Shown in pieces: positions 1 through 6,480 of a stretch of 64,000 bases of DNA (the stretch's first letter is position 1; each line of letters begins with the position of its first letter). A program made the position numbers and the translations under genes. Location: NCBI GenBank assembly GCA_015068325.1, contig SVKQ01000015.1, forward strand, positions 62,001 through 126,000, given 5' to 3'. The notes under the pieces are model-generated. The model made no database searches and was not told the origin of the DNA. It was given only the letters and a program-made list of their open reading frames with translations. The DNA comes from Oscillospiraceae bacterium (GTDB taxonomy: Bacteria; Bacillota; Clostridia; Oscillospirales; Oscillospiraceae).

Positions 1-274
1 CGTGTCCCAGCCCCCGCTTATCACGACAGATGAGGCCGACGCGCTCCAGCTCGCGGAGCTTGCCCGTGGCCTTGTCATGGGACCGGTGCAGCCGGGTGCG
101 AATCTCCCGGTTGGTACAGAACACGTATACACCGCGCTCATCCTGCAGACCGTTCATTTCCGACAGGCTGACGCGATCCGCCAGGATAGCGTACAGCAGC
201 TTTGCTCCGTCGGACAGCGCCATCTCCAGCAGCATGGCTGGAAGACGGATGAACTGTCCCTCGTTCTCATTCAT
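1..274 (-). CDS. RepA-type replication initiator, N-terminal fragment (runs off left edge)
   Basis: The minus strand encodes 91 residues beginning MNENEGQFIRLP and continues past the window edge. The AKLLYAIL...RVSLSEMNGL...DERGVYV pattern, followed by a winged-helix-like stretch, matches the N-terminal DNA-binding region of replication initiator protein A (RepA_N family) found on Firmicutes plasmids and integrative conjugative elements. The ATG at 274 is preceded by GGAGG at 288-292. This family binds its own origin and starts replication of the element. Its presence suggests that the left edge lies inside an ICE or integrated plasmid. The identification rests on N-terminal similarity only, because the rest of the gene is not visible. 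Confidence 0.7.
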   Translation of the reverse strand, partial: MNENEGQFIRLPAMLLEMALSDGAKLLYAILADRVSLSEMNGLQDERGVYVFCTNREIRTRLHRSHDKATGKLRELERVGLICRDKRGLGH

Positions 275-922: not shown

Positions 923-1070
923 GCTGGGGGGTGTTTAATTGTCAAGGTACACTAGGGCTTAGGCCCTCTCACTAACCTATTGCCGAATTATTTCGGAAAA
1001 ATCCAAAACAATTTTTCATATATTTTTTCGTTGAGTAAAAGGACATCAGCATCGCCAGCTTCTGTGCATG

Positions 1071-1330
1071 AAAAAAAGGCCATCTTCGCGCAAAACAAAG
1101 ATGGCCTTTTCAATCACCGTTCGGAGCCGGATAAACAAAAAACCGTACGTTCGGCAGCAGGGGGAAGAGGGTCCTCCTGTTTATCCGACTTCGTACGGTG
1201 CTTGGTAGTTTCTCAACACAGTTTCCTGTGCTGCTCCGCTTGCTCGATTAAAAGTCCTTTATTCATTTGTCGTGAGCAAAGCATGAAATGCTGAGCGCAT
1301 GGAGACAAATATTGTTATATCTGCGTCTCT
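1071..1330 (-). ncRNA. Structured non-coding RNA, about 255 nt, with pseudoknot and own promoter/terminator
   Basis: A consensus promoter (1337-1365) fires leftwards and predicts a start near 1330. An intrinsic terminator ends the transcript near 1071, and no plausible reading frame lies between. On the RNA (minus) strand the 5' part has a 7-bp stem (1304-1310 with 1265-1271). A CACAG/CTGTG hairpin with a GAAA tetraloop follows around 1217-1230. The 3' domain has a 13-bp stem with one G-U pair (1178-1190 with 1125-1137). The segment 1192-1200 can pair either with 1142-1149 (8 bp, forming an H-type pseudoknot with the 13-bp stem) or with 1115-1120 (6 bp, nested). I could not assign it to tmRNA, RNase P, SRP or 6S RNA by signature sequences. 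The raiA-type class is one candidate to test. Confidence 0.65.
1074..1110 (-). terminator. Intrinsic terminator of the structured RNA
   Basis: An inverted repeat around AAGGCCATCTT/AAGATGGCCTT has its stem at about 1074-1087 and 1097-1110. On the minus strand it is followed by a run of seven T. The stem is also flanked by A/T runs on the other side, so it could work in both directions. Confidence 0.7.
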
Positions 1331-1336
1331 GTTTGC

Positions 1337-1365
1337 ATTATAATAGAACAAGAGTACGATGTCAA
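1337..1365 (-). promoter_or_regulatory. Sigma-A promoter of the structured RNA
   Basis: On the minus strand TTGACA (1360-1365) and TATAAT (1337-1342) are both perfect consensus hexamers with a 17-bp spacer. No coding start lies downstream, which is what led to the RNA call. Confidence 0.75.
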
Positions 1366-1897: not shown

Positions 1898-4303
1898 TTA
1901 TTCGTTTGGTTCGCCGCTAATTTCTTTCAGGTACGCTTTCGCGCACTCTACTATTTCAGCTCTTTCAGATTCGGTTAGGGCGTGACTCGAAGTTCCGGAC
2001 ATATCTGCTTGGACCCGGCGTTGCACATAAAAAATGATGTTGTACATTTCCTGTACGGATAAATATGAGGAATAACGGAGTTGGAGTGTGATTGCGATAC
2101 GCTCAGGCGGCATATTAAAGAGTGACACACGGCTGTACACAGTAATGAAAATCTCGAGAAGCGTTTCATAATTGTTCTTGGTTTCAATCAGTTTCTGCAT
2201 TGAATAAGTAACACCGGCGACATTCCGTTTAGTATCAGGACCAGGGAAAAAACGACTCTTTTGGTCATCAGACAGTTTATCAAACGCCACATTGAATTCT
2301 TCGCTTTGGAGCACAGGTTGTTCGGGGGACTGTACTGTTTTAGCTTGTCCTTTCTGCTTTTCCTCCTCAAGTTCTGCCTCTGCCGATCTCAACCACTTAT
2401 CAAGTTGGGCCATTGCAACAGGATCTTCCAAAATTTCTTCAATAGGGGTAGCCGTAGACATAGAAGGACTATCTGAGAGTCTGTCAGATAAATCATCTAT
2501 TTGTCTGGGCTCCTCCCTAACCTGATTACCGCAATAGCGGCAATACTTATCTGAACTTACAAGTTTGCCACCACATTTTTTACAGAGGGGAGTTGATTCC
2601 GCACCAACTTGTTCGTGTTTCATGCCACATTTATGGCAAAACACACTGCCAGGGATGAGTTTGCTCCCACATTTTCTGCAGAACAACTCTATAGGTTTCT
2701 TTTCTTCAGGAGGAGCTGCCAGTTCGCTACCGCAATACGCACAAAACGTGCTATCGCTTGCAATATACTTTTTCCCGCAATTTGAACAGAAACATGGAGC
2801 CGACGTCTTATGTACGGTCTGCGCATTGCTTTTCTCTACGGACGGGTTTGCCGGAGGGGAAATAACAACGCCGATTGCACGCATAATAGATTCCATTCCT
2901 GTTATCGTTTTGGCTAAAGAGTATCTTCTGCTCCCATCGTCCATGCAGAGTCCAAAACTGTGATTGTGGGTGAAATACTCGCTTGTGTAGAAATGTTTTT
3001 TTCCGTTGGAGATAATCAACCCAATATAGTTTACTTCACATTCAAGCGAGGCATCGTTTAATGATAGGATTACACCATGCTGTGACTTGTTTTTACTGGC
3101 AACAAACACAGGATTAAGAATCTGGTAATAGTCCTTGGGAACAGTTATACCCTTTGCTTGACAGCGCAAAACGGCGGATTTAATTATTTGTTCTACGCCC
3201 GTGACGCTTTGCAATTTGTCGGGTGTAAAGGTATCTGCAAAAAATGCATCCTTGAGTGCAGAAAAAGTAAACTGATAATTAAATGATCCCCCAAGTCCTG
3301 CCGCGGTTTTCTCAACAGTTTTCGCTTTAGGAACGACGGCTGCAGATTTATTTACCTCACAACTATTTCCGCCTGAAATCTTTTTTTCAGCGCTGTAGTT
3401 ATGAGGAGGTTCGGGGCTATGCTTTGTGTTACCAATATGCGGTACCGTCTCTGGATTTGTACGATTGCCGCCACTTGAAACTTCGGGAGGAGCTGTAAGT
3501 ATTTCGCCTGATGAAGGCTCTTTTTTATCTGGATCCAGAGGTATTTCTCTTTTCGACTTTTTCTTGCGAAGTCCGAGGAATACTAGAGCTACAACACCTA
3601 CACCACATACGCCAAAAATATAGTATTTAAGGTCGGTTGAGGTACTTACCGCATCCTCTTTTGGGGTGGTGTTAACGCTGCTGCCGGAGGTACCACTCTG
3701 CGAGGGTTGATTAATTGCGGTATATTTCGCACTATCAACTACGTTCTTGATGATTGCTCGTTGTTTTACGGAAACGTTCCCATTATAAGCAACAATCGAA
3801 ATGCGGATCATTTTTCGATCGACAATTGTAACATACTGGACACTATACTGCGGAGTATTCCCCGCTGAATACTTGATTGAGTCAACTATATATTTTACAC
3901 CGCCAACGGTGTAAGCCTCGCTACTATAGAGTGTAATCCCGAGTTCACTGTTTCTCGAGTGCATACCATTTGAAAGGTCTTGGAAATCTGCGTCTGATAA
4001 AGCCGCTAAAGAGCTGATTTCAGAAGGTTGCATCTTTATTTGGATCTCATAATCCTCGGTATAACCCAATAGATACATGCTATTTGTGCGCATATTTGCG
4101 AGAATATCTTCTCTTGAATATGGCAGGTATTTAATACTTGGATCATCTTCTTGGACATTGCGCATAAAAAACAGCATTTCATCCGGTAATTCTACCTTTA
4201 GATTCATCTCATATACATCGCATGTTTGGGTTGCGGATGCAACGATTGGAATCGCAAACAAACACGCCAAAATCACAACAATGACATTCAATATCCTTTT
4301 CAT
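1898..4303 (-). CDS. Exported/membrane protein with three zinc ribbons (801 aa)
   Basis: Function is not recognised. Visible layout: a signal-peptide-like N-terminus (1-25), an exported region to about 225, and one membrane helix at about 226-245 followed by KKKSKR, a positive-inside signal. A low-complexity linker leads to an unassigned domain at about 335-480. Three CxxC...CxxC zinc ribbons follow, at C506-C524, C542-C559 and C574-C591. A helical C-terminal domain covers about 670-790. The topology puts the zinc ribbons in the cytoplasm. The ATG at 4303 follows GGAGG with 6-base spacing and lies downstream of a good promoter (4420-4448). The gene is more AT-rich than the core region and stands divergent to two further zinc-ribbon genes, which suggests one acquired cluster. 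It may sense something outside the cell and signal inwards, but that is inference. Confidence 0.8.
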   Translation of the reverse strand: MKRILNVIVVILACLFAIPIVASATQTCDVYEMNLKVELPDEMLFFMRNVQEDDPSIKYLPYSREDILANMRTNSMYLLGYTEDYEIQIKMQPSEISSLAALSDADFQDLSNGMHSRNSELGITLYSSEAYTVGGVKYIVDSIKYSAGNTPQYSVQYVTIVDRKMIRISIVAYNGNVSVKQRAIIKNVVDSAKYTAINQPSQSGTSGSSVNTTPKEDAVSTSTDLKYYIFGVCGVGVVALVFLGLRKKKSKREIPLDPDKKEPSSGEILTAPPEVSSGGNRTNPETVPHIGNTKHSPEPPHNYSAEKKISGGNSCEVNKSAAVVPKAKTVEKTAAGLGGSFNYQFTFSALKDAFFADTFTPDKLQSVTGVEQIIKSAVLRCQAKGITVPKDYYQILNPVFVASKNKSQHGVILSLNDASLECEVNYIGLIISNGKKHFYTSEYFTHNHSFGLCMDDGSRRYSLAKTITGMESIMRAIGVVISPPANPSVEKSNAQTVHKTSAPCFCSNCGKKYIASDSTFCAYCGSELAAPPEEKKPIELFCRKCGSKLIPGSVFCHKCGMKHEQVGAESTPLCKKCGGKLVSSDKYCRYCGNQVREEPRQIDDLSDRLSDSPSMSTATPIEEILEDPVAMAQLDKWLRSAEAELEEEKQKGQAKTVQSPEQPVLQSEEFNVAFDKLSDDQKSRFFPGPDTKRNVAGVTYSMQKLIETKNNYETLLEIFITVYSRVSLFNMPPERIAITLQLRYSSYLSVQEMYNIIFYVQRRVQADMSGTSSHALTESERAEIVECAKAYLKEISGEPNE

Positions 4304-4764: not shown

Positions 4765-5358
4765 TTGGAAAAGAATGAGCGTGTTCGCATTTCATTGTTT
4801 TCTGTTGTGTCGGTGCTTGCTAGCGCAATTGGCGTTGTCTTATATAGCCTTTGCTTTTCCACTCATTCCGTGGCTGTGTTCACACTATTTAAGGTAGTTG
4901 CGATTGTTTCCATTATTATTCCTCCTGTTTCAAAGGCGCAGAGGTTATCAGTTCATAAAAGCGGAAAGGCCCTTGAGATATTATCCATCATTATTGCTGG
5001 ATTTAACTTTTACTGTGTAATCTTTGCTTTTACAAAGTTGCCAATTCTTATTGCATATTTGGGGTGGGTCATATGTGGAGTGACATACAAACTCGCGAAG
5101 GGAAGTTGGTGGCCACAAAAGGAAAAATGTTTATCTTTCGATGAAAGCGTTCCCGTTGTGTTATCCTGCAAAGAGCCCTCTGCGCAAGATAATGCAGTAG
5201 GTGCTTTAGAGATTACTGACACTATGCCAGAAACGAGGGACAATGACGATCTGGTTTTTGCGGATCAAAAACCGTGTTATTGCCGAAAGTGTGGAGCAAA
5301 GCTCGGAGATGACGTTTTATTTTGCCACCGTTGCGGAGCAAAAGTGATAGGAGGATAA
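4765..5358 (+). CDS. Membrane protein with C-terminal zinc ribbon (197 aa)
   Basis: A TTG start at 4765 is chosen because AAAGGGG (about 4749-4755) lies a suitable distance upstream. Residues ~10-115 contain four hydrophobic segments likely to be membrane helices. A hydrophilic linker follows, and the protein ends with a CRKCGAKL...CHRCGAK zinc ribbon. It has no recognised enzymatic motif. The stop is 3 bases before the next gene, so the two are surely co-transcribed and probably coupled. It shares its zinc-ribbon style with the divergent 801-residue protein, which suggests a common complex. Function unknown. Confidence 0.75.
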   Translation: MEKNERVRISLFSVVSVLASAIGVVLYSLCFSTHSVAVFTLFKVVAIVSIIIPPVSKAQRLSVHKSGKALEILSIIIAGFNFYCVIFAFTKLPILIAYLGWVICGVTYKLAKGSWWPQKEKCLSFDESVPVVLSCKEPSAQDNAVGALEITDTMPETRDNDDLVFADQKPCYCRKCGAKLGDDVLFCHRCGAKVIGG

Positions 5359-5361
5359 ACA

Positions 5362-6000
5362 ATGAAATGTCCAAAGTGTGGGATGATACTTCCCGAAGAC
5401 AGTGAGTTTTGCCAGTATTGCGGAACAAAGATCGAAGAAGAAGGCCAGTCTCAACTGTCTTGTACAAAATGTGGGAATGCTCTCACAGATGATAGCGATT
5501 TTTGCCAATACTGCGGGACCCCTGTTGGGAAAAAAACAGTTCTTCCTCAGACGCGCAGCCCTGAAATGGATAAGATTTTTCCTGAGAAGAGCAAAATAAA
5601 GAAAAAGGTTAATGCAAAAAAACCGTTGAAGATAGCAACGATTGTCCTTGCCATTGCTTTCGCCATTGTGGCCGGACTTTCCGTTTATCAATACTTCGCT
5701 GTAAAAGATACAATAGCTTCCTATAGGAATAGTGTTGACTCTCTTAGAACAGAAAATAGTAAATTTGATTCAACAATTAAAAGTCAAAACGAAACCATCA
5801 CGAATCAAAATGGAACCATCTATGATCTGAAAAGAACGCTTTCTTTTTATGAGCAGCACGCTGTCGTAGTTCCTGATGACGGAACAAATCTTTATCATAC
5901 TTATGGATGTGATTACCTAGATACCTCCTCTTTTTGGATCTATAATACTGAAGCGGCAATCGATGAAGGATTTAAGCCTTGCCCGCATTGTCAAAATTGA
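5362..6000 (+). CDS. Double zinc-ribbon protein with membrane helix and coiled coil (212 aa)
   Basis: The protein opens with two zinc ribbons (CPKCGMIL...CQYCGTK and CTKCGNAL...CQYCGTP, residues 3-55). A basic linker and one membrane helix (~88-108) follow, then a heptad-rich coiled coil (~112-160). A small C-terminal domain carries further cysteines (YGCDYL and CPHC). It overlaps nothing but begins 3 bases after the preceding stop, with the Shine-Dalgarno GGAGG inside the end of that gene. The architecture suggests a membrane-tethered adaptor with cytoplasmic zinc ribbons and an extracellular coiled coil. No known function can be assigned. Confidence 0.75.
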   Translation: MKCPKCGMILPEDSEFCQYCGTKIEEEGQSQLSCTKCGNALTDDSDFCQYCGTPVGKKTVLPQTRSPEMDKIFPEKSKIKKKVNAKKPLKIATIVLAIAFAIVAGLSVYQYFAVKDTIASYRNSVDSLRTENSKFDSTIKSQNETITNQNGTIYDLKRTLSFYEQHAVVVPDDGTNLYHTYGCDYLDTSSFWIYNTEAAIDEGFKPCPHCQN

Positions 6001-6480
6001 GCTGTCTCCTTTGAGATCAGATTAGCATGGCTTGTCGCATTTAATCATATCTAAGCATACCCTGCGCGGCGCGCGGGCGGGATCGCCCGGTTTTAGCCTT
6101 AGATTTAGCCTTTACAGGTTGTGAAACGTTGTTTTTTGCTGGTTTTTGCTGGCACTTGCGAAACGGCGGAAGTGGTTGCTATGACTGCGTTTTGGCACTC
6201 TCTGGTACCATCTGGTTAACATAAAACGGTAATTCGAATCTCGACACTCGGACCAAAAACGACGGATGCGCTTATGCGCAACCGCCGTTTTTCTGTTCGT
6301 TGAGATTCGAACAGGGCACTCGCGGAGCGAGAGAAACAGTCCGTTGGACTGTTTCGGTGCCCGCGTGCGTGCCGGTGAGCAATCGCGAAGCCCGGGCGAA
6401 TCTCGACACTCGGACCAAAGACAGGTTTCTTCGGACGGAGGCACTTTGTAAGGAAGTGCCTCTTTTTCGTTTTATTAATG
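6001..6480. repeat. Duplicated tRNA-3'-end-like sequence in gene-free region
   Basis: The 23-bp sequence beginning CGAATCTCGACACTCGGACC occurs at 6235-6257 and again at 6397-6419. A third, inverted partial copy lies at 6299-6309 with one mismatch. Each full copy resembles the 3' side of a T-arm plus acceptor stem ending in CCA, but no complete tRNA can be folded around either. Such fragments are typical of integration scars at tRNA genes. Short self-complementary runs also occur (for example around 6258-6295 and 6330-6352). No protein gene is supported here. Confidence 0.5.

Follow-up and report, generated by a model that had tools for sequence, protein, structure and literature searches.

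In the Salmonella prophage Gifsy-1, IsrK is a short RNA that opens the start of a small ORF in a read-through transcript, and the next gene is translationally coupled to this ORF, according to PMC4825925. The same source describes an sRNA gene with its own terminator, a read-through mRNA (orf45-anrP) arising from the same promoter, complementarity between the short RNA and the downstream leader, and alternative structures in the long transcript. The layout of the loci described here suggests a likeness to IsrK in these features, with a small upstream ORF before the next gene in many of them, although the coupling is shown for IsrK and the likeness here is one of gene order. Two further systems are close in layout. 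C4 of phages P1/P7 is an antisense RNA acting in an immunity setting through two short segments, one of whose targets lies over a ribosome-binding site (PMC5320573, in excerpt), and the short leader RNA CI of phage P4 pairs with the flanking seqA and seqC of its own transcription unit (PMC4825925, in excerpt). Here we report an apparently undescribed small-RNA family with a comparable layout, carried on mobile DNA of gut and rumen Clostridia.

The window RNA and its element

The first copy was noticed in the window, the whole 64,000-nt stretch of Oscillospiraceae DNA that was analysed. A sequence-only reading had proposed an orphan structured RNA there and had given no strand; the RNA is assigned to the minus strand, because both the promoter and the hairpin with its U-run lie on it. 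The perfect consensus promoter of that reading is a sigma-70 type site at 1337..1365 (minus strand; TTGACA 1365-1360, 17 nt, TATAAT 1342-1337), the sole 12/12 match within 800-1800, and its intrinsic terminator is the long hairpin and U-run at 1110-1071 on the same strand. A simple terminator scan listed four plus-strand sites and missed this hairpin, in our opinion because the A-run pairs with the U-run and uses up the T tract. The supposedly frame-free stretch is indeed devoid of minus-strand frames of at least 60 codons between 274 and 1258; the plus strand has a 104-codon frame at 980-1294, and a 7-codon minus-strand frame begins at 1069. Folding also speaks for a structured RNA, as had been claimed: minus-strand 1335-1073 folds at -97.1 kcal/mol, better than all 200 shuffles (-64.1 +/- 4.3 kcal/mol; 0/200 equal, z -7.6), and the plus strand folds strongly as well (z -5.4), as expected of a complement.

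The promoter and the terminator-like hairpins together suggest two forms of the RNA, both from the minus strand like every feature below: a long form of about 260 nt (1071..1330) running through the U-run of the P3 hairpin, and a short form starting near 1330 and ending near 1137, at the first U-run. Their 5' part contains R1 (conserved UAAUCGAGCAAGCG, 1237..1250), which is complementary to the loop region of P3 (in homologues, to R1' immediately past the U-run as well), and AAGCGGAGCAG (1231..1241), near-invariant in the first alignment of 20 sequences. The P2 hairpin, GCAGCACAG-GAAA-CUGUGUUG (1214..1234), was taken from the fold and seen in homologues by eye, with no covariation detected, and is followed by the conserved single-stranded element ACUACCA (1203..1209; alignment). 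R2 (CCGUACGAAGU, 1188..1198), identified as the switching segment by the pairing tests, is the 5' strand of the first terminator hairpin, whose 3' strand T (CGUACGGU) lies together with the U-run at 1137..1149 (sequence and alignment). Its rival partner R2' (GCUCCGAACGG, 1117..1127) forms 9 of 11 pairs in the window and 10-11 in many homologues. The P3 hairpin (1071..1110) is terminator-like with a U-run in the window and conceals a Shine-Dalgarno sequence in homologues, and behind it stands a probable decayed leader peptide, MHRSWRC plus stop (1046..1069), where relatives read MRRIWRCYIAAYP.

The segment 1192-1200 is complementary to both 1142-1149 and 1115-1120, as the sequence-only reading had it. 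On the minus strand, the pairing with 1142-1149 gives a terminator-like hairpin with U6 (1142-1137) behind it, and that with 1115-1120 is part of the minimum-energy fold. The two are mutually exclusive as proposed, but a pseudoknot appears only with the inner GGATAAAC/GTTTATCC stem held fixed, and the arrangement is better read as sRNA terminator versus sRNA-target pairing.

A mobile-element setting had been supposed as well, and the RNA does lie between the integrase/repA and zinc-ribbon genes of what is probably an integrated element, some 8.5 kb long (int, repA, RNA, zinc-ribbon genes). To the left, outside the window, are a tRNA-Pro gene and a tyrosine integrase, followed by a RepA_N replication initiator, whose N-terminal part occupies 2..274 of the minus strand and continues outside the window (frame and domain match), and then by the RNA; integrase, repA and RNA share the minus strand. 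A 23-bp repeat of the tRNA-Pro 3' end at 6233..6255 (plus strand; repeat match) is the probable right end (attR), and 21 bp of the same tRNA end recur at 6397 (6397-6417). With copies of the tRNA-Pro 3' end at L006:17739-17761 and at these two window sites on its right side, the element may be tandem or may adjoin an older one. Three zinc-ribbon proteins are encoded in the element, at 1898-4303 (minus), 4765-5358 (plus) and 5362-6000 (plus).

Homologues, the R2:R2' pairing and the target

With the window RNA as query, blastn found one relative in the genus, no match among plasmids and one unannotated 4.1-kb record among phages; homologue L003 as query matched two plasmid records in the leader and regulator part only (query position 197 onwards), as well as three phage records, L003 itself among them. 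A gapped pattern derived from the first relatives hit 34 genome contigs, 28 of them real copies by eye and six chance matches (L024, L025, L034, L036, L043, L053), and in viral contigs it hit 16 stretches, with L005 as the only real copy by eye. The pattern copies lie mostly in records labelled Clostridia, Lachnospiraceae, Oscillospiraceae or Ruminococcaceae, and those of L042 and L050 carry the labels Erysipelotrichaceae and Faecalitalea; by record title, Faecalicatena contorta, Muricomes intestini and Faecalitalea cylindroides are named isolates with copies. A covariance model built from 20 sequences, the window included, was applied at cut-offs that varied by search and, with the own genome counted wherever it was searched, matched 11/391 genomes of the class, 17/394 of the order, 5/70 and 19/247 of two families (some weak ones false), and 1/18 and 1/6 in two further families. 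Of 378 genomes sampled across the phylum, none matched at 1e-6 except the one from which the window comes. Opposite-strand model matches were discarded, and the weak matches L068, L074, L075 and L089-L092 were rejected as false by eye (L092 resembles a CRISPR array, L091 a terminator only). After removal of the near-identical copies L044, L058, L035, L059, L041, L095 and L099, the pattern and the model together gave 58 dereplicated loci including the window, mostly Clostridia; the RNA is therefore a member of a family rather than an orphan.

No Rfam 15 family, raiA, ROOL and GOLLD included, reached its gathering score in the window, which agrees with the earlier failure to name the RNA, and the best permissive match within 900-1500 was isrD on the terminator hairpin (17 bits against a gathering score of 37). 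An Rfam search of nine homologue loci (L002, L003 and L005 among them) gave no match for the RNA itself. The conserved sequence consists of UAAUCGMGYAAGCGGAG(CAG), which is R1, then AAACUACCA, and GCACCGUACGAAG, which is R2 and the 5' strand of the terminator hairpin, with the variable hairpin P2 between the conserved segments. ACUACCA is conserved and unpaired family-wide, and could be a contact for a protein or the ribosome. The RNA of L057 contains an inserted, diverged second P2/R2-like stretch, as if partly duplicated.

Retention of promoter and terminator in homologues and compensatory changes in their stems had been named beforehand as checks. The terminator is retained, with a U-run in 56/58 loci. 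The promoter is retained in part: a promoter-like site within 160 nt upstream of R1 was scored in only 16/58 loci, a count made without a shuffle control (11/16 loci without R2', 5/42 with R2'). The gene context suggests that in many of the others the RNA forms the end of an upstream operon's transcript. In the first alignment (14 pairs), RNAalifold detected no two-sided changes, the sRNA's own stems being too conserved or misaligned; thus, the covariation evidence comes from R2:R2', and not from P2 or the terminator.

R2' was found in 42 of the 58 loci, 6-34 nt past the terminator, but the search criterion itself includes complementarity to R2, so this count alone is no proof of pairing and the proof has to come from covariation. 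Pairing occurs in 314 of the 341 base-pair cells that 31 distinct R2/R2' combinations provide, and two-sided changes occupy 37 cells at 7 of the 11 positions; shuffles average 9.0 such cells, and 0/500 reach the observed cells or score. Controls in which R2 and R2' were slid were at most 44% paired. When partners were swapped and the best complement was re-searched per leader, 0/20000 swaps reached the cognate mean of 18.4 (swapped 14.0; 42 loci), and likewise 0/20000 reached the cognate score in the first 31 leader loci. Examples of cognate pairs are CCGUAUGAUGG with CCAUCAUACGA (L104), CCGUGCGAGUC with UACUCGCACGG (L086) and CCGUAAGAAGC with GCUUCUUGCGG (L032). The compensatory changes therefore fall in the switching helix, and the R2:R2' pairing is under selection. 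The terminator U-run is present in 41/42 leader loci, and the short distance from it to R2' leaves no room for a promoter between them; hence, the target should arise only by read-through of the sRNA gene.

Behind R2', the stability of P3 exceeds that of shuffles in 34/42 loci (z below -2), and the hairpin conceals an AAAGGA-type ribosome-binding site, whose mean unpaired probability is 0.12 (40 scored). In 24/42 loci, a leader peptide of 11-36 residues ending W-x6-Y-P-stop starts at this hidden site, under a rule requiring a W, and YP or FP at the end; in an earlier count, which took the first start after the Shine-Dalgarno sequence and required no motif, 17 of the first 31 leader loci had YP-stop peptides. 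Examples are MFYTVWQCQIAKYP, MKWLCYQARYP, MYLQGWQAAIAAYP and MRRIWRCYIAAYP, and the ends of the 24 peptides read approximately W[LQ]Cx(I/T)AxYP. The Trp and the Pro-stop resemble those of TnaC, although the spacing differs. The stop codon often opens a stretch that by eye complements the next gene's ribosome-binding site (UAAUCUCC with GGAGAUUA), and a frame of at least 60 codons stands behind the peptide in 23 of the 24 loci. In 14/42 loci, the hidden site directly starts a regulator-size gene of 94-196 codons, eight of which are XRE-type by eye; in 4/42, the window included, neither a leader peptide nor a direct gene was found. Two XRE genes tested gave good HTH_3/HTH_19 matches, and among eleven other regulators tested L079 and L103 pass the sigma-70 region 4 cut-off, the rest giving weaker matches or none. 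In L005, the regulator is followed by a MazF-like gene, a Tn916-type excisionase (Xis) and an integrase. Upstream genes in several loci are S24/LexA-like, ImmA-like (M78) or Y-family polymerase genes (Pfam on L044 and L037), which are DNA-damage-related. The pemK RNA motif (Rfam RF02913) occurs about 0.65-0.85 kb downstream of the RNA in L026, L080, L086 and L104 (4/6 sources).

R2' is absent, by the same criterion, from the other 16 loci, and these solitary copies retain R1 and the conserved unpaired nucleotides. LexA-type boxes lie in the same 160-nt upstream stretch in 8/58 loci (6/16 without R2', 2/42 with R2'), against a shuffled mean of 0.4 (maximum 3) and 1/58 in a control window. They lie over the promoter in five loci, just downstream of it in two, and in one locus without a scored promoter. 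The strict form GAACN4GTTC has four occurrences in 23 loci of up to 8 kb, three of them at the RNA promoter. As these boxes sit near the promoters of several, mostly solitary, copies, DNA damage is a likely input (SOS-type control). In L028, L031 and L033, a Mob_Pre-like relaxase frame follows the RNA (Pfam on L033 only). A mini-ORF ATG-ACR-TAG with a Shine-Dalgarno-like stretch precedes this frame in the same three loci. The solitary copy L033, which has a LexA-type box, fits the rare R2' of L052 from the same MAG best of all 42 leaders. Together with this clear fit, the three same-genome pairs of solitary copy and leader gave rank 1, rank 3 (a partial fit) and rank 25 of 42, the last being no fit (L094 stood for the near-identical L095).

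Proposed mechanism and alternatives

We lean, by somewhat more than an even judgement, towards a two-isoform riboregulator of an integrative element that activates its target in trans, as IsrK does. In the intact family form, one transcription unit would give two products: most transcripts would end at the R2:T terminator hairpin as an sRNA of about 130-200 nt, and some would read through into an mRNA carrying R2' within 6-34 nt and then P3. P3 would hide the ribosome-binding site of the leader peptide, or directly that of an HTH or sigma-like regulator. Two contacts between sRNA and leader, one of R2 with R2' and the other of R1 with the loop region of P3, would set the translation of the regulator, which precedes excisionase and integrase genes in several loci. 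The leader would be OFF by default, with P3 closed, and accumulated sRNA would switch it ON in trans. Activation is preferred because the leader is predicted to be OFF by itself.

The second contact was approached in several ways, all on the first 31 leader loci. A gapless fixed-register comparison of R1 with the P3 region was not significant (1419/20000 swaps), and a duplex-energy comparison with extended R1, run after the gapless one had failed, gave 44/20000 swaps; R1 is also complementary to R1' directly past the U-run, where 6/20000 swaps reach the cognate score. The R1:P3 register differs between subgroups, and in many loci the R1 pairing stops close to the Shine-Dalgarno sequence. R2, for its part, is occupied within the terminator stem once the sRNA is complete, and would have to exchange strands to pair in trans. 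Forcing R2:R2' in the read-through RNA has a median cost of 8.9 kcal/mol (range 0-26; 42 loci). At equilibrium co-folding, the site is unpaired at 0.116 alone and 0.127 with the sRNA, rising by more than 0.2 in only 1/40 loci, and the idea that sRNA binding melts P3 at equilibrium is thus unsupported. Since co-folding fails to open the site and forcing the pairing is costly, these calculations do not settle the choice between activation and repression.

Repression, as in C4 of P1/P7 and CI of P4, is the best-surviving alternative, and we consider it possible though rather unlikely. Here, the sRNA on R2' and the P3 loop, 5' of the ribosome-binding site, would block translation or cause early termination, and would thereby give immunity against related elements. 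The layout fits, as the excerpts of PMC5320573 and PMC4825925 also describe an sRNA gene and, behind it on one transcript, a pair of complementary target sites close to a start site; solitary copies without a target of their own (16/58) would make sense as immunity RNAs, and the end of the R1 pairing near the Shine-Dalgarno sequence would suit a block there. However, folding predicts a closed leader even when no sRNA is present, which makes further repression seem redundant, and a separate opening step would be required.

The window copy raises the question of decay. Its sRNA core scores 107.8 bits against the family model (the window being among the 20 sequences that built it), and R1, P2, ACUACCA, R2 and the terminator are all retained. 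Its R2:R2' pairing is lengthened by GUCGGAUAAAC/GUUUAUCCGGC and so already lies within the minimum-energy fold of the long form, and the forcing cost is 0, as in L038 and L077. Its P3 has turned into a long hairpin of terminator type that offers no good ribosome-binding site, and no regulator gene was found for this copy, with no minus-strand frame of 60 codons between the leader and repA. Accordingly, this copy is read as one that has kept the sRNA and a perfect promoter, the part with its own target having decayed. A LexA-type box was not found at the window promoter, and scanning the genome of the window for a second target yielded no more matches than the reversed control (six, the RNA itself included, versus 11). 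Without a good Shine-Dalgarno sequence, and with a truncated peptide and no regulator found, the window RNA is probably a constitutive sRNA that acts, if at all, on other elements. That the stretch is instead a functionless relic with terminator-like hairpins would suit the decayed target half and the lack of a regulator gene, but the high-scoring core, the intact R1, P2, R2 and ACUACCA and the perfect promoter make this improbable.

We give still less credence to a purely cis switch in the read-through RNA, in which fold A (R1:R1', R2:T, P3 closed) and fold B (R2:R2', R1 with the P3 arm, site free) would be flipped by a protein, a ligand or a stalled ribosome, possibly via ACUACCA: the complementarity of R1 to R1' and the R1:R1' pairing in predicted read-through folds of L002, L061 and L086, shifted in L104, are in its favour, as is the site freed by forced fold B in L104 and partly in L080, but of these five homologues L080 does not form R1:R1' and L002, L061 and L086 keep P3 closed under forced fold B, R1 and the conserved unpaired nucleotides persist in the solitary copies though these lack R2', and the near-universal U-run makes a free short RNA likely. 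A riboswitch, moreover, has its domain always in cis with an expression platform, and 16/58 copies stand without the R2' leader. An oriT or single-strand origin was set aside on sight of the leader and terminator pattern.

Returning to activation in trans, a broader and more speculative scheme, which we put forward tentatively and hold to be doubtful, would couple DNA damage to element exit. LexA-type control of the sRNA, sRNA control of the hidden start and an arrest-type W-x6-YP-stop peptide would together gate a sigma-like regulator of xis/int, and solitary copies, some beside Mob_Pre relaxases, would act in trans between the elements of one cell as RNA cross-talk or immunity.

Comparison with known systems

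Among the literature matches listed, none was seen to describe this RNA or the W-x6-YP peptide, and the family may sit unnamed among the 16,482 motif models of PMC8040213. The pemK RNA motif shares the locus type but is a separate motif lying well downstream, and has no match in the window. A C4 antisense RNA covariance match (Rfam) was found neither in the window nor in the nine homologue loci. The C4-type trait of two segments complementary to the start-site region of the same transcript is nonetheless present in homologues, strongly for R2:R2' and more weakly for R1:P3, and imperfectly in the window. C4 differs in being cut out by RNase P and in repressing (PMC5320573, in excerpt), whereas the present RNA has an intrinsic terminator at its 3' end, and the 5' strand of this hairpin doubles as a pairing segment. 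CI acts by transcription termination (PMC4825925, in excerpt), a mode that the RNA proposed here may or may not share, and the likeness to it is one of layout.

IsrK differs from this family in its phylum, and the RNA described here has no Rfam match of any kind in the window or the nine homologue loci. The W-x6-YP-stop peptide, the site hidden in P3, the R1' past the U-run and the LexA-type boxes of some loci also set the family apart from IsrK, as does its target, an HTH or sigma-like gene, which stands before xis/int in L005.

To our knowledge, the timing of excision of integrative elements in gut Clostridia is little understood. The present loci offer a concrete RNA circuit for this decision, with base-pairing open to reporter assays, and it is present in named isolates. 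The added leader peptide, if the proposal is true, may be a new arrest peptide. The principle is already known from enterobacterial prophages; as far as we have seen, the novelty lies in the family and its host group, in the double target, and in the peptide and LexA-type boxes. If the proposal holds, the logic of an sRNA plus a read-through mRNA, as in IsrK, C4 and CI, would extend to Clostridia.
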